A stretch of DNA of 64,000 nucleotides from Erysipelotrichaceae bacterium NK3D112 (lineage in GTDB: Bacteria; Bacillota_I; Bacilli_A; Erysipelotrichales; Erysipelotrichaceae), in the NCBI GenBank assembly GCA_000701725.1, contig JNJQ01000003.1, forward strand, positions 1-64,000. Reading direction: 5' to 3'. The notes under the pieces were generated by a model. The model ran no database searches. It worked only from the letters and a program-made list of their open reading frames with translations, and was not told where the DNA came from. The position numbers were made by a program, and so were the translations under genes. Position 1 is the first letter of the stretch. Every line of letters begins with the position of its first letter. Below, piece after piece: positions 36,944-42,775 of the stretch.

Positions 36944-38011
36944 ATGTCACTGGAAAGCGATCTGTTCGAAAAAATGAGACCGGATACCGGCAGACTTGCC
37001 GATTACGGTTTTAAAAAGAATGACAATCAATACATTCTGGACCGAATGATCTGCGGTGAGACTATGAAGGCGCGCATCATCATCGATGAGTCTCTTCATA
37101 TCAGCGGCAGAGTCTATGACGATTTCGATGAGGAATATGTGGCATTCCGTCCCGAAGGGGCAAGAGGGGAATTCGCCGCCAGAGTCAGAATGGAATACAT
37201 TGATCTGCTTGAGGATATTGCCCGTCACTGTTTTGTCAAAGTGCCGTTTATTTCGGATCAGGCAAACCGGATCAATGATTATATTTTCAATGTCTATCAC
37301 AATGTGCCGGAATATATCTTTGCAAAATTCCCGGGCTATGCGGTTTACAGAAATGATGGCGGCAAATGGTATGGACTGATTGCGGAGGTTCCTGCAGGAA
37401 CACTGCCCGAAGTGGATGAGAAAAAGGAAATCATCAATATCCGTGTGGATTCTTCGGAAATGGCAGAGATTCTGAATCTGCCGGGCATCTTTCCGGCCTT
37501 TCATATGAACAAGAAAAACTGGGTGACTGCCGTTCTGGACGATACGCTCTCAGATGCAGAAATCAAAAGACTGGTTGATCAGAGCCGTGAGCTGATCAGC
37601 GGCGGAAAAACGAATCTGATCCGCTCCGAATGGATTATTCCGTCCAATCCGAAATACTTCGATCTGGATCATGCCTTCTCAGTCAGTGAGCTGCTTTATT
37701 GGAAACAGAGCTCAAAAGTCAGAGTCGGCGATCTGGTCTATATCTACAGCGGCATGCCGTTTGGTGAAATCCGCTGGCTTTGCGAAGCGGTTGAGACCGA
37801 TCTGCCTTATAAAGGCGCCAACGACGGTCCGGTCCATTTTGAAAAGCTCATGCGGCTGAAAAAGATCCGCTTCTTTGACGGTCATCTGCTGAACCGCAAA
37901 ATGATTGCCCGCTATGGCGTGACCAACATCCGTGGACCGCGCTATATGCCCAAAGAACTCAAAGAGGAAATTATCCGTTTATACAATCTGGAGGAAAATG
38001 AAAATGAGTGA
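36944..38011 (+). CDS. MmcQ/YjbR-like protein with a C-terminal EVE-like region
   Basis: The 355-residue protein seems to combine two modules. Residues about 1-230 contain a MmcQ/YjbR-type region (YIFAKFPGYAVYRND, WYGLIAEVPAG, MNKKNWVTAVLDDTLSDAEI). Residues 225-355 begin IIPSNPKYFDLDHAFS and include VRVGDLVYIYSG and GEIRWLCEAVETDLPY, resembling EVE/PUA-like nucleic-acid-binding folds. A TATAAT (36917-36922) and GGAGTG precede the start. It overlaps pepF by 8 bases. The function is unknown; binding of modified nucleic acid is an inference from the EVE-like part. Confidence 0.75.
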   Translation: MSLESDLFEKMRPDTGRLADYGFKKNDNQYILDRMICGETMKARIIIDESLHISGRVYDDFDEEYVAFRPEGARGEFAARVRMEYIDLLEDIARHCFVKVPFISDQANRINDYIFNVYHNVPEYIFAKFPGYAVYRNDGGKWYGLIAEVPAGTLPEVDEKKEIINIRVDSSEMAEILNLPGIFPAFHMNKKNWVTAVLDDTLSDAEIKRLVDQSRELISGGKTNLIRSEWIIPSNPKYFDLDHAFSVSELLYWKQSSKVRVGDLVYIYSGMPFGEIRWLCEAVETDLPYKGANDGPVHFEKLMRLKKIRFFDGHLLNRKMIARYGVTNIRGPRYMPKELKEEIIRLYNLEENENE

Positions 38012-39806
38012 AAAAATCAGAGAGAGAAATGAAATCGAGGAGCAGTACAAGTGGGACCTTTCCGCATTGTTTGACAACGATGCGAAATGGGAGGAGGCAC
38101 TTGCCTCAATGGATGAGGAAATCGCAAAGATCGCTTCCTGGAAGGGAAAGCTGAACAACGCACAGACCATCCGTGAATTCCTGGATGCCCGCAGCGCGCT
38201 CAGCCGTAAGCTCGAAAACATCTTTACCTATTCCTTCCTGCGCAACAGCGAGGATACCCGCGCTTCCGACGCCCAGTCCATGTATGCAAGAGCCTATGCG
38301 AAGATTGTCGCTGCGGAAAGCGAAGCCGCTTTCTTCAGACCGGAAGTGCTGTCTCTTGGCGAGGAGAAGCTGAATGAAATCATCGGTGACGAATGCCTGA
38401 AGCCCTATGAATTCCTGATGAAGGATATGCAGAGAATGGCAGCCCATACACTTTCCTCCAAAGAGGAACAGCTGCTTGCCGCTTTCGGCGAAGCCCTTGG
38501 CGCCTCCGGCAGAATCGCTGAGACACTGATGGATGCCGATATGGTCTATGATTCCGTCCAGGACGGCGAAGGCAATGAGCGCGAAGTCAGCGACGCAAAC
38601 TATATCCTGCTGCAGTCCGACTCAGACCGTGTGCTCAGAGAAAATGCCTTCCGTTCCTATTACAAGAGCTATAAGCAGCACATCAACACCTATGCGGCAG
38701 CTTATTCCGGAACCGTCAAGGCTATGACCACCGAAGCAAAATTCAGAGGTTTTGAATCAAGCCGCGCCATGAGCCTTGCCAATGACAACATTCCGCTGGC
38801 AGTCTATGACAACCTGATCGCGACCGTTCACAAGCACATGGACACCATGCACAGATATGTGAAGCTGAGAAAGAAGATTCTCGGTGTTGATGAACTGCAT
38901 TACTATGATGTGTATGCGCCTCTGGCAGGGGATGTCTCCAAAAAGTACACCTATGACGAGGCAAAGCAGCTTGTTCTCAAGGCGGTCAGCCCGCTTGGCG
39001 AGGATTACTGCAATACCGTGAAACAGGCCTTTAAAGAGAGATGGATTGATGTCTATCCCAACACCGGCAAATCCGGCGGCGCTTATTCCAGCGGCACATA
39101 TGATTCCAGACCTTACATCATGATGAACTTCACGGGCACTCTGGATTCCGTTTCCACAATTGCCCATGAGATGGGTCATTCCATGCATTCCTGGAATACC
39201 AACCACACCCAGCCTTATCATTATGCGGACTACACGATGTTCGTGGCGGAAGTCGCTTCCACCGTCAATGAGAACCTGCTGATTGAACAGCTGCTGGCGG
39301 ATGAGAAGGATCCGAAAAACAGACTGGCTCTGCTGAACCAGTATCTGGAAGGATTCAAGGGAACCGTCTACAGACAGACGATGTTTGCGGAATTTGAAAT
39401 GAAGGCCCATGCAATGGCAGAGCGCGGCGAGTCTCTTGACCAGGCTGCGTTATGCGCGATTTACAAAGATCTGATCAAGCAGTATTTCGGCGAGGATCTT
39501 GTCATTGATGATGAAGTCCAGTACGAATGGAGCAGAATTCCTCATTTCTACAGACCGTTCTATGTCTTCGTCTATTCCACCGGCTACTGCACAGCCAGCG
39601 CCTTAAGCCAGATGATTCTTTCCGAAGGCAAACCGGCCGTTGACAGATACATTGATTTCCTGAAGATGGGATCTTCCGCTTATCCGATTGATGAGCTGAT
39701 ACATGCGGGCGTTGATCTCAACACACCTGAGCCCATTGACAGAGCACTTGAAAAATTCGAACAGGTTGTCGCGGAAGCGGAAAAGATCGCTGACGAGCTT
39801 GCCTGA
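38004..39806 (+). CDS. pepF: Oligoendopeptidase F (M3 family)
   Basis: This cytosolic zinc endopeptidase degrades short peptides. The 600-residue protein has the M3 motif IAHEMGHSMHS (HExxH-type core HEMGH near residue 388), with the third zinc ligand in VAEVASTVNENLL about 25 residues later. The C-terminal FYRPFYVFVYSTGYCTAS lines the active site. ATG 38004 follows GGAGG by 9 bases and overlaps the previous stop; ATG 37998 is less well spaced. It ends at a strong terminator. Confidence 0.95.
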   Translation: MSEKIRERNEIEEQYKWDLSALFDNDAKWEEALASMDEEIAKIASWKGKLNNAQTIREFLDARSALSRKLENIFTYSFLRNSEDTRASDAQSMYARAYAKIVAAESEAAFFRPEVLSLGEEKLNEIIGDECLKPYEFLMKDMQRMAAHTLSSKEEQLLAAFGEALGASGRIAETLMDADMVYDSVQDGEGNEREVSDANYILLQSDSDRVLRENAFRSYYKSYKQHINTYAAAYSGTVKAMTTEAKFRGFESSRAMSLANDNIPLAVYDNLIATVHKHMDTMHRYVKLRKKILGVDELHYYDVYAPLAGDVSKKYTYDEAKQLVLKAVSPLGEDYCNTVKQAFKERWIDVYPNTGKSGGAYSSGTYDSRPYIMMNFTGTLDSVSTIAHEMGHSMHSWNTNHTQPYHYADYTMFVAEVASTVNENLLIEQLLADEKDPKNRLALLNQYLEGFKGTVYRQTMFAEFEMKAHAMAERGESLDQAALCAIYKDLIKQYFGEDLVIDDEVQYEWSRIPHFYRPFYVFVYSTGYCTASALSQMILSEGKPAVDRYIDFLKMGSSAYPIDELIHAGVDLNTPEPIDRALEKFEQVVAEAEKIADELA

Positions 39807-39814
39807 TAAAATTG

Positions 39815-39842
39815 ATCCGGACGATTTGTCCGGATTTTTTTT
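39815..39842 (+). terminator. Intrinsic terminator of pepF
   Basis: ATCCGGAC, loop GATTT, GTCCGGAT, then TTTTTTT. Confidence 0.9.
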
Positions 39843-39854
39843 GAACCTGTATCA

Positions 39855-39860
39855 TATAAT
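39855..39860 (+). promoter_or_regulatory. TATAAT -10 six bases before a start codon
   Basis: A perfect TATAAT ends at 39860, while the ATG of the MFS-like gene is at 39867. Transcription would start at or within a base or two of the ATG, implying a leaderless mRNA. No ribosome binding site and no good -35 is visible. Confidence 0.6.
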
Positions 39861-39866
39861 GAAATT

Positions 39867-40904
39867 ATGAAAGCATGCAGAAGCGGTACAAAGATCATTG
39901 CGGTGCATTCCATCAGCCACATGGCTGTGGATTTCATCTGCATTCTTTCCCTGATGCATTCCTTTGGCAATGATGCGCAGATGATTGTGCTTTACAATTT
40001 TTGTGCTTTCGCATTGCAGCTGCCGGCCGGACTGATGCTTGATCTGCTGGTCAAAGACCGTAATGACAAACAGGGGATTCCGCTGTACGCAGCCATTGCC
40101 GGCATGGTGCTATGCATGATCGGATCATTTACTGCACCTTTAATCAGCGGCCTTGGCAACGCACTGTTTCATACCGGTGCAGGTATGATCTGTATGGAAC
40201 AGGATGAAGTGAACTCCTTCAAAGGCAGGGGACTCGGCGTGTTTGTGGCGCCTGGAGCACTTGGTGTGACAGGCGGTATTCTCCTAGCTTCCACAGAATG
40301 GTTTTCCATCGTCCGCATTGTACTCTGTGCGCTGCTGGCACTGCTTTGCCTGATTGCACTTTCCATGCACAGGCACGCTGAAATAAGCAGAAAACCGGTA
40401 TCGCAGTCCCTGCATACGGATGATCTCAGAATTTCGTTTCTGTGTCTGGCAGCAGTCATTCTGCGCTCGATTGCCGGCACTTCGCTGGTGTTCTCATGGC
40501 GTAACGGTGTTGTCTATATTGTTCTTTCAACGCTTGCTCTGGCAGCTGGAAAAGCGGCCGGCGGTTTTCTGAGTGCGCGGCTCAATGTAAAGAAAGCTTC
40601 CGTCATGTCCCTGGTTCTGGCAGCAGCCTTTTATCTGGTGAGCGATCATCCGTTCTTTGGCCTTTGCGCATTGTTTTTCTTCAATATGACCATGCCTTTG
40701 ACACTTTACATTGAGATGAAAAATCATCCGGATATGCATGGATTCGCGTTCGGCCTGCTCACGTTCGGTCTGTTTCTCGGCTGGCTGCCGGCCTTTTACG
40801 GAATCTGTAAAAATGTGAATGCGCCATTGCCCGGTGCAGTGATTTCCATCCTCAGTATGATCCTTTTGGTATCTGCGGAAGCGTTGCGAAAGAGGAACTC
40901 ATGA
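39867..40904 (+). CDS. MFS-like multi-pass membrane protein
   Basis: The 345-residue protein has about ten to eleven hydrophobic helices and an MFS-like pattern, including a DLLVKDRNDKQG cytoplasmic loop and SARLNVKKASVMSL. It is shorter than the usual 12-helix transporters (about 400 residues). Helix ends such as GLGNALFHTGAGMIC and PGALGVTGGILLA recall MFS motifs, but no specific family was recognised. It heads a four-gene cassette with a small membrane protein and two signal-peptide microproteins, linked by 4- and 19-base overlaps. Its start appears leaderless. The substrate is unknown. Confidence 0.75.
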   Translation: MKACRSGTKIIAVHSISHMAVDFICILSLMHSFGNDAQMIVLYNFCAFALQLPAGLMLDLLVKDRNDKQGIPLYAAIAGMVLCMIGSFTAPLISGLGNALFHTGAGMICMEQDEVNSFKGRGLGVFVAPGALGVTGGILLASTEWFSIVRIVLCALLALLCLIALSMHRHAEISRKPVSQSLHTDDLRISFLCLAAVILRSIAGTSLVFSWRNGVVYIVLSTLALAAGKAAGGFLSARLNVKKASVMSLVLAAAFYLVSDHPFFGLCALFFFNMTMPLTLYIEMKNHPDMHGFAFGLLTFGLFLGWLPAFYGICKNVNAPLPGAVISILSMILLVSAEALRKRNS

Positions 40905-41242
40905 TCCGCACATTGTTTGAACCGCTGATCCTGACCATGATCCTGGAGGCGGCAGGGGCTTATGTGCTTGGCGTCCGTGATCTGAAACGGCAGTATCTGA
41001 TCCTGCTTGTCAACTGCATCACCAATCCCTTGCTGGTATGCGCATCGCTTCTGGCCATGCATTTCATGGGTGTGCAGAGCGGGATAATGATCACATATGT
41101 GCTGTTTGAACCGATTGTGGTGATCGCTGAGTATCTGATGTATCAGAAGAAAATGGATGTGCCGATGCATCCGCTGATCTTCTCGGCTTTGCTGAATATG
41201 ATTTCCATTTGCGGAGGTGTTTTATGGAGAAGTCTCTTTTAA
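40901..41242 (+). CDS. Small four-helix membrane protein, function unknown
   Basis: The 113-residue protein has about four helices: LFEPLILTMILEAAGAYVLG, then YLILLVNCITNPLLVCASLL, then ITYVLFEPIVVIAEYLMY, then LIFSALLNMISICGGVL. Asn/Pro pairs inside the helices and a repeated LFEP motif are notable. It overlaps the MFS-like gene by ATGA and the next microprotein gene by 19 bases, so the products are likely made together. I do not recognise a family. Confidence 0.72.
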   Translation: MIRTLFEPLILTMILEAAGAYVLGVRDLKRQYLILLVNCITNPLLVCASLLAMHFMGVQSGIMITYVLFEPIVVIAEYLMYQKKMDVPMHPLIFSALLNMISICGGVLWRSLF

Positions 41243-41415
41243 GAAAATCAATCGCAGCCATCTGTTCCGTATTCTTCTTTGGCATTATGGCAATTCCGGT
41301 AAAGGCGGACGCTGCTCCGGTGCCTTTTTATGCAGCCATGACGCTCTGGCCTTTGATACTGGCCGTGCTAATTATGATCATCGCAATCTTTCTGTACAGA
41401 AAATTTAAAAAGTGA
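41224..41415 (+). CDS. 63-residue signal-peptide microprotein with one membrane helix
   Basis: ATG 41224 follows GGAGGT. The protein has a basic start (MEKSLLRKS), a signal-peptide core and a likely cleavage at VKA-DAAPVP. A short outer segment reaches LWP, followed by a helix (LILAVLIMIIAIFLY) and the tail RKFKK. The mature form would be about 34 residues, outside-in with a basic cytosolic end. The downstream microprotein shares the same plan and the mature start D-x-A-P-V/I-P. Function is unknown. Confidence 0.72.
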   Translation: MEKSLLRKSIAAICSVFFFGIMAIPVKADAAPVPFYAAMTLWPLILAVLIMIIAIFLYRKFKK

Positions 41416-41458
41416 TTTGATCTGATTGAAATCTACAAATTAATAGCGGAGGTAATTT

Positions 41459-41656
41459 ATGAATACGATGAAAAGAAGAGGATTTGCCGCAGTTCTTTCG
41501 GCTGTCATGATCACACTGTTTTCTAAACTCACGGTGTATGCGGATCTGGCCCCGATTCCGCCTGAAGAGCCGGAGCCTCTACGGATCTGGCCGGCTTTGC
41601 TGATTGCGGCTGTGGTGATCATTGCCTTGGTTCTGTATTTCAGATATAGAAAATAA
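41459..41656 (+). CDS. 65-residue signal-peptide microprotein, paralogue of the preceding gene
   Basis: A perfect GGAGGTAATTT precedes ATG 41459. The plan repeats that of the gene before: basic start (MNTMKRRG), hydrophobic signal and cleavage near VYA-DLAPIP. A proline- and glutamate-rich outer segment (PPEEPEPLRIWP) leads to the helix ALLIAAVVIIALVLYF and the basic tail RYRK. The last gene of the cassette, it is followed by a hairpin shared with convergent lrgB. Function is unknown; a role as a small membrane-bound signal or transporter accessory is speculation. Confidence 0.72.
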   Translation: MNTMKRRGFAAVLSAVMITLFSKLTVYADLAPIPPEEPEPLRIWPALLIAAVVIIALVLYFRYRK

Positions 41657-41672
41657 TCAATCGCAAAATGAA

Positions 41673-41715
41673 AAAGACATCCGTTTCATGTGTATGCATG
41701 TGTGCGGATGTCTTT
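41673..41715. terminator. Hairpin between convergent cassette and lrgB
   Basis: AAAGACATCCG (41673-41683 with flanks) pairs with CGGATGTCTTT (41705-41715) around a 21-base loop. The T-tract is better on the minus strand, favouring lrgB. Confidence 0.7.
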
Positions 41716-41720
41716 CGCTA

Positions 41721-42413
41721 TTACAGGAACATTGCCCAGAGATTGGCACCGATGACGGTGATGATACCGGCGGTGACGATGGAAAGGGAACTCATTGCGC
41801 CTTCCACTTCACCGATTTCCATGGCTTTGGCGGTTCCGATGGCGTGGGCGCTGGTGCCGATGGCAAGACCCTTGGCAATCGGATCGGTGATGTTGGCTGC
41901 TTTCAGCACGCCTTCTGCGGAGATGTTGCCGAAGATACCGGTGACGATGATGGCAGCGACTGTGATCGGAACCACACCGCCAAGCTCTTCGGAAATGCTC
42001 ATGCCGATCGCGGTTGTGATCGACTTGGGCAGGAATGTGACATACTGCGCATGATCGAAGTGGAAGATCAGTGCGAAGATCAGAATGACTGTCATGGAAG
42101 TGATCGAACCGACAAAGATGGAGATCAGAATCGCTTTGATATTCTTCTTCATCCTCTCGATTTCCATATAAAGCGGAATTGCCAGGGATACGGTGGCAGG
42201 TGTGAGCAGATAGCTCAGATACTTTCCGCTGTTGCTGTAGGATGCGTAATCAATCCGGAACACCAGCAGGAAGATCATTGTGAGGGCGATGGAAATCAGC
42301 AGGGGATTGATCAGGCTGCTTTTGAATTTCGCCTTGAGCCACATGCCGAAATAATAGAAGATCAGAGAAATCACAACACCGACGGTGGTGCTGGAAGCGA
42401 AGAACTCGTTCAT
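41721..42413 (-). CDS. lrgB: LrgB family membrane protein
   Basis: This 230-residue multi-helix protein of the LrgB/CidB family includes SLAIPLYMEIERMKKNIKAI, FLPKSITTAIGMSISEELGG and LAIGTSAHAIGTAKAMEIGE, the conserved core of the family. LrgAB-type systems are linked to murein hydrolase control and, in Bacillus, to pyruvate transport; the role here is not shown by the sequence. I start it at ATG 42413, after GAAAGGAG. A longer in-frame extension up to 42734 runs antisense-like through lrgA and is not real. It overlaps lrgA by 4 bases. Confidence 0.92.
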   Translation of the reverse strand: MNEFFASSTTVGVVISLIFYYFGMWLKAKFKSSLINPLLISIALTMIFLLVFRIDYASYSNSGKYLSYLLTPATVSLAIPLYMEIERMKKNIKAILISIFVGSITSMTVILIFALIFHFDHAQYVTFLPKSITTAIGMSISEELGGVVPITVAAIIVTGIFGNISAEGVLKAANITDPIAKGLAIGTSAHAIGTAKAMEIGEVEGAMSSLSIVTAGIITVIGANLWAMFL

Positions 42414-42775
42414 GCGTTTTCTCCTTTCTTTTTGTCTTTCGAAATAATGAATTCGGCAGTTTTGCCGGTTACCACCATAACCACGACATTGCAGACGATC
42501 ACGGTGATCAAAGCGGGAATCAGAATCGGCTGAAGGGCACTGAAGGAGTCCAGAAGGCCGACGGCTGCCGGTATGAACATCACCGGCATGATGGCGATCA
42601 GAAACTGGGCGGCGGATTTCACCTGATCCAGTTTCAATACTCCCGCATAAAGCAGAATGAACATCAGCACAAGGCCGTAGATGGAAGCGGGGATGGGCAG
42701 GGGAAGCACATAACGGATGATTTCCCCGATGCATGTCACCAGCATGATGATCAGAAATTGCTGAAGATACTTCAT
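42410..42775 (-). CDS. lrgA: LrgA/CidA family membrane protein
   Basis: This 121-residue holin-like partner of LrgB has four helices. The conserved LPLPIPASIYGLVLMFILL lies near residue 24 and FLIAIMPVMFIPAAVGLLDS near residue 60. A lysine-rich tail (KDKKKGENA) follows. ACGAGG lies before the start. The gene is first in the two-gene operon, coupled by an ATGA overlap, and divergent from the glutathione peroxidase gene. Confidence 0.92.
   Translation of the reverse strand: MKYLQQFLIIMLVTCIGEIIRYVLPLPIPASIYGLVLMFILLYAGVLKLDQVKSAAQFLIAIMPVMFIPAAVGLLDSFSALQPILIPALITVIVCNVVVMVVTGKTAEFIISKDKKKGENA

Follow-up and report, generated by a model that had tools for sequence, protein, structure and literature searches.

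A four-helix membrane protein paired with an MFS-fold protein and D....P-tagged microproteins in Erysipelotrichaceae and Oscillospiraceae: parts of a candidate transporter complex

Four tightly packed genes in the window (the whole stretch of 64,000 nucleotides that was analysed) encode an MFS-fold protein, a 113-aa four-helix membrane protein (4TM), and two signal-peptide microproteins. From sequence features we tentatively read them as the parts of a single transporter complex, in which the single-pass subunits would be docked via a short tag, D-x-x-x-x-P, at their mature N terminus. The association of 4TM with this tag is well shown. The original prediction had placed four genes with 4- and 19-base overlaps and two signal-peptide microproteins here, as direct reading of the ORFs confirms, and had recognised no described system of this composition. 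The latter stands after searches of Pfam, NCBIfam, PDB, and the literature: Pfam and NCBIfam hold no family for the four cassette proteins, nor for the SH3-like proteins and fusions described below, and no paper on a system of this composition was found. Features are listed in Table 1.

Table 1 Positions in the window of the cassette genes, their borders, and the tags; membrane-embedded residues are numbered within the 4TM protein
Feature	Position	Strand	Details
Intrinsic terminator of upstream M3 peptidase gene	39814..39836	+	Stem of 10 pairs, loop of 3 nt, T tail; bounds the cassette upstream
MFS-fold protein gene	39867..40904	+	345 aa; ORF read directly
4TM gene (113-aa four-helix membrane protein)	40901..41242	+	4-base overlap with MFS gene
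Microprotein 1 gene	41224..41415	+	63 aa; 19-base overlap with 4TM gene
D-x-x-x-x-P tag of microprotein 1	41308..41325	+	DAAPVP
Microprotein 2 gene	41459..41656	+	65 aa
D-x-x-x-x-P tag of microprotein 2	41543..41560	+	DLAPIP
Inverted repeat 3' of microprotein 2	41673..41715	.	Perfect 11 bp, 21-nt loop
Membrane-embedded residues of 4TM			T12, E16, N38, T41, N42, E70, E77, N99, S102

The upstream terminator parts the cassette from the family M3 peptidase gene, and the 11-bp inverted repeat is probably the terminator between the cassette and the convergent lrgB. Shine-Dalgarno-like sequences are seen 5' of the 4TM gene (AGAGGA), of microprotein 1 (GGAGG, 41213-41217), and of microprotein 2 (GGAGG, 41448-41452); none is visible before the MFS start. 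An Rfam search around the cassette gave no match. The adjoining M3 gene behind the terminator encodes oligoendopeptidase F (37932-39806), and another genus also has an oligoendopeptidase F (M3) gene, about 1 kb downstream of its cassette (L105 1097-2899). The lrgB-lrgA pair, convergent to the cassette in the window (41721-42775, minus strand) and in L004 (5556-6718, minus strand), is conserved among the closest relatives as the neighbour on the downstream side.

The 345-aa protein is clearly MFS by predicted fold: its AlphaFold2 model (pLDDT 87, pTM 0.88) gave Foldseek matches of probability 1.0 and TM-score up to 0.72, with MFS transporters in the top rows. Its signatures are HxxxD in helix 1, YNFCAFALQxPxGxxxD, GNALFHxGGG, and FNMTMPxTL. 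The window protein matches nothing in Pfam or NCBIfam, and relatives scored 20.3 and 26.2 bits against Pfam MFS_1, below the 33.4-bit cut-off; the protein is thus MFS by fold only and is filed in no Pfam or NCBIfam MFS family. The profile built for its family also picks up ordinary MFS transporters and found no match in a PDB sequence search.

The 4TM domain has the signature invariant E, N-x-x-T-[NQ], E-x6-E, N-x-x-S. Among 95 domain sequences, a set spanning down to about 20% identity, N38, E70, E77, and N99 are invariant (95/95), and T12 and E16 are each kept in 94, a constancy on a par with that of enzyme or ion-site residues. Such a buried set of carboxylates and amides is typical of ion, proton, or catalytic sites. 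With depth assigned from helix order and basic loops, and provided that the fused ectodomain lies outside, the invariant residues are predicted at mid-membrane depth and in the inner half; direct contact between them and a tag on the outside is therefore unlikely. At residue 42 all 51 fusions have Q and all 44 standalone proteins have N, a switch that also marks one split in the tree and is therefore not independent functional evidence. A comparison of 4TM columns between D-type and N-type tags found nothing convincing. The AlphaFold2 model (four sequences; pLDDT 86, pTM 0.72) has four helices, and a fold search with it against PDB returned nothing above helical-bundle background: the best Foldseek rows were RibU, an ECF S component, at E>1 and probability 0.41-0.44, and EmrE and Gdx came low (E 6-8, TM about 0.3). 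An ECF S component, an SMR protein, and LTC4 synthase were considered as identities of 4TM and found no support in the fold search; as to SMR, the window protein has no Pfam or NCBIfam family at E<=1, and no SMR occurs among the families matched by 51 members. A PDB sequence search with the 4TM profile gave no match.

The domain is matched either by standalone proteins of about 110-160 aa or by fused proteins of 250-330 aa, the latter made up of a signal peptide, an ectodomain, and a C-terminal 4TM domain. In a tree of the 95 domain sequences the two forms fall on opposite sides of one branch (support 86/72). In nearly all 51 fused proteins the mature chain starts, after A, with D-x-G-P-K-P or a close variant; a few start like N-S-A-E-P-P. 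Fused-form genes are solitary with no MFS gene beside them, so that 4TM can function without one. In some proteins the domain is joined in one chain to a kind of tagged segment that elsewhere is encoded next to it, which by the classical argument would speak for physical contact between the two. The window's own genome holds one standalone and one fused 4TM; the fused protein (contig 55; L124 6312-7193) is solitary, has a predicted mature start ADTGPKPS, and carries the domain at its C terminus. Just upstream of this gene, on the opposite strand, an ORF encodes a reverse transcriptase domain (Pfam RVT_1). A literature search for the fusion signature MGPKPS found no paper.

The two window microproteins are 32% identical, and each consists of a signal peptide ending in A, a mature part starting DAAPVP (microprotein 1) or DLAPIP (microprotein 2), as the original prediction had it, one helix, and a basic tail (RKFKK and RYRK, respectively). 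Partners of standalone 4TM genes share little beyond the tag [DN]-x-x-x-x-P at the mature N terminus. It follows the signal peptide directly (DAAPVP, DLAPIP, DIAPDP, DEIYEP, DVIWEP, DVIAGP; N-type examples are NAPAP and NSPSP), and in microproteins that have no signal peptide it is kept behind a few hydrophobic residues (LLDVAPTP, LDVIANP, YDIAPDP, FDEAPIP). The predicted pattern, D-x-A-P-[VI]-P followed by WP before the helix, kept its initial D and its P within a wider D....P, sometimes with N for D; the WP, put forward as part of a common plan, is confined to the window pair and the nearest copy and is absent in most relatives.

The first loci gave the tag rule, which was fixed before most of the loci were fetched and then tested on the later ones. 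Of 65 signal-peptide-like proteins encoded contiguously with standalone 4TM genes, 30 have [DN]x(2-4)P at the predicted mature start, versus 8/125 elsewhere in the same DNA, both denominators being inflated by the simple heuristic used to detect signal peptides. Five of these eight are cassette members or direct 4TM neighbours; without them the control is 3/120 (Fisher p about 2e-13 against the 30/65). The tag is loose, with P at position 6 in 27 of 43 partners with a signal peptide and 15 of 23 without one in a list curated by eye. Unlinked SH3-like paralogues on other contigs keep it (ADIAFEP, ADMIVGP, ADYIAFP), the rest of the protein having diverged.

Several loci vary this arrangement. 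Microproteins are duplicated, with two in the window, L098, L099, and L107, three in L092, and four or five in L108, where different single-pass microproteins of 45-54 aa are encoded in tandem, either between MFS and 4TM or next to the latter (1531-2698; YDLPSP, LDIAHDEFP, FDEAPIP, YDGAPSP, and one without P). At L112-L115 and L118 (Bacilli) a protein of 131-214 aa is encoded just upstream of the MFS gene; at four of these five loci a D(x4)P-like motif directly precedes a lipobox-like Cys (the sequences being LDVVIFPFSC, LDVMIFPFAC, LDVAVFPFSC, and LDMPSPFGAC), as if the tag were part of a lipoprotein signal.

All four ORFs are kept in a near-identical genome (L003), with dN/dS of 0.29 for 4TM, 0.19 for microprotein 1, and 0.11 for microprotein 2, from few substitutions; the ORFs are therefore not due to chance. 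L004, at about 46-50% identity, keeps MFS, 4TM, and one microprotein; L005, of the Oscillospiraceae, has MFS, 4TM, a microprotein, and a 270-aa SH3-like single-pass protein, 'SH3-like' being assigned by reading the sequence, with no Pfam domain reached. The microproteins and the gene order are thus conserved in related genomes of two families, and the whole set, tag included, is met again in many Firmicutes. Across Erysipelotrichaceae and Oscillospiraceae the MFS-4TM gene pair recurs, followed by one to five single-pass microproteins and in many cases also by SH3-like single-pass proteins; tagged single-pass proteins adjoin most of the pairs.

By profile search the 4TM domain is present in 19/95 genomes of the window's family, 33/120 of L005's family, and 46/392 of the sample of the window's phylum; of the genomes sampled from two gut-associated Firmicutes families, about a fifth to a quarter thus carry this unnamed domain. 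The MFS subfamily occurs at E<1e-50 in exactly 15 of the 120 Oscillospiraceae-family genomes, namely those that hold a standalone 4TM; all others lack it, fused-only ones included. Exactly 7 of the 95 Erysipelotrichaceae-family genomes have it at E<1e-90, again those with a standalone 4TM; one extra match in this set (E 1.7e-11) is far weaker than the seven. A 299-genome sample of the phylum added four strong MFS matches, three beside 4TM and one at a contig end. Strong SH3-like matches were confined to genomes holding the MFS-4TM pair. Weak ones in cassette-free genomes were discarded, as they align only over proline-rich or anchor C termini; the one retained, in a genome with no detected 4TM, is a 218-aa signal-peptide protein with mature start ADLAIKP (L160 1498-2154), a possible exception to the tag rule. 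In some Bacilli no MFS gene is recognised beside the standalone 4TM (L116, L117, L119, L120, L122, L123, L146-L148); in one branch of these (L117, L119, L120, L147, L148) the 4TM protein is longer, about 140-165 aa, and adjoining proteins of 240-330 aa have mature starts NAPAP, NSAAP, NSPSP, or NAPQQGP. A protein that by eye resembles the manganese exporter MntP is encoded near the standalone 4TM gene in two distant genomes (L103 2664-3146; L116 3481-3972). The viral contigs and plasmids searched held no relatives of the cassette, which is therefore not mobile-element cargo in those collections.

In the transporter complex that we tentatively propose, the MFS-fold protein would be the substrate-translocating subunit and 4TM its constant partner, whose buried acidic and polar site (E16, N38, T41, E70, E77, N99) probably serves to bind an ion or protons, or else belongs to the substrate path. 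The microproteins would be interchangeable single-pass ancillary subunits, N-out with the Lys/Arg-rich tail inside, docked by the mature tag on the outer face of 4TM or of 4TM and MFS together; in relatives the same tag would tether larger SH3-like, probably wall-facing proteins, and the fusion of 4TM to a D-x-G-P-K-P ectodomain would be a one-chain form of the same contact. For the cassette proteins we infer physical docking, N-out topology, transport, and what the polar site does. Of the original suggestion, the half that spoke of 'subunits of a novel transporter' is the better supported one, through the MFS fold, the perfect co-occurrence of MFS and standalone 4TM in two families, and the adjoining tagged proteins. 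A wider reading, possible although we lean against it, takes D-x-x-x-x-P as a general extracytoplasmic tag and 4TM as a new membrane module that would recognise or process it, a Firmicutes system working at the N-terminal end of proteins, in cis on fused ectodomains and in trans on microproteins, SH3-like proteins, and unlinked paralogues; no described equivalent of such a tag-and-handler system is found. In practice, the standalone 4TM comes with microprotein families easily missed by gene finders, and the rule that a mature N terminus D....P marks a partner of the 4TM domain can be tested and would give a function class to many unannotated small proteins.

The strongest rival to the transporter complex, itself rather unlikely, casts 4TM as an intramembrane enzyme or maturase that would recognise the tag of the D....P proteins, its substrates, and trim, lipidate, or otherwise modify their N terminus. 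Strict invariance of the buried E/E/E/N/N across sequences of about 20% identity would suit an enzyme, as would the finding that a genome's one 4TM has several tagged partners, some of them unlinked, with diverged bodies and a kept tag, in a logic, not a sequence, comparable to the tag-substrate systems of sortase/exosortase or Lgt/LspA; microproteins free of signal peptides keep [hydrophobic]-L/Y/F-D-V-x-x-x-P, and in one lineage D....P abuts the lipobox-like Cys (LDVVIFPFSC). However, 4TM carries neither a His/Ser/Cys nor any known catalytic signature, its invariant residues are predicted on the inner side and the tag outside, partners with a signal peptide already carry an ordinary A-x-A site, and every 4TM of the fusion branch comes linked to a tagged ectodomain of its own, which is odd for an enzyme. 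A very unlikely alternative makes 4TM a dedicated chaperone in the insertion or assembly of small tagged membrane proteins, with the MFS protein as one client: short N-out single-pass proteins lacking a signal peptide could need such help and the MFS-4TM pair is constant, yet the fusion branch and the ion-site-like invariant carboxylates would be left unexplained, and Pfam and PDB searches revealed no similarity to Oxa1/YidC-type families.

Other readings concern the microproteins. That they are regulators which tune or stabilise a transporter, not structural subunits of it, is quite unlikely in our view; the varying number of microproteins per operon agrees with it, and AcrZ, MgtS, MntS, MgtR/MgtU, and WatS1 are precedents (PMC10710835), but no common N-terminal tag is described for the known small regulators, and the cis fusion of tag and 4TM argues for an obligate contact. 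Secreted signals, the other half of the original suggestion, fared worst: a role for the microproteins as signals, secreted or on the surface, or as bacteriocin-like peptides, with MFS and 4TM as exporter and receptor or immunity protein, is highly improbable. Signal peptides and recurrent paralogous duplication would fit; the anchoring helix and Lys/Arg tail are kept, many microproteins have no signal peptide, neither a peptidase/exporter pair nor a release site is seen, and a pheromone model does not predict the same tag on larger SH3-like proteins.

Compared with known systems, the 345-aa protein shares its predicted fold with the Major facilitator superfamily but differs in having its own conserved signatures, in the scores of its tested members (below the MFS_1 cut-off or no match), and in that, throughout the two families tested, its subfamily occurs only together with a standalone 4TM. 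FraC (PF24301, NF045624), a cyanobacterial filament integrity and septal junction protein compared by profile only, is the sole family matched more than once by 4TM members in NCBIfam; the resemblance is weak but recurrent (2/51 and 3/28 members, best E 4e-5), covers helices 3-4 of the domain where positions are given, and lies far below the curated cut-offs (L063 with 17.7 and 21.4 bits versus 27 and 100 bits). The FraC profiles match neither the window 4TM nor anything in its own genome, and the suggested link remains a lead. AcrZ, MgtS, and similar small proteins, which tune or stabilise bacterial transporters, are likewise single-helix microproteins acting with a transporter, but they belong to other transporter classes and have no common motif and no signal peptide, unlike the cassette microproteins (PMC10710835). 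C termini anchored by LPXTG sortases likewise consist of a hydrophobic helix and a basic tail; the microproteins have no LPXTG before the helix and match Gram_pos_anchor and LPXTG_anchor below threshold only, and were rejected as sortase substrates. Transporters of the MCT-basigin/embigin type consist of an MFS protein and a single-pass ancillary protein. Their logic is similar, an MFS transporter having single-pass partners that bear small extracellular parts, and the cassette may encode a bacterial MFS transporter whose single-pass subunits are obligate; it differs in being bacterial and unrelated in sequence, in its extra 4TM subunit, and in partners as small as 43-73 aa with a common N-terminal D....P tag.
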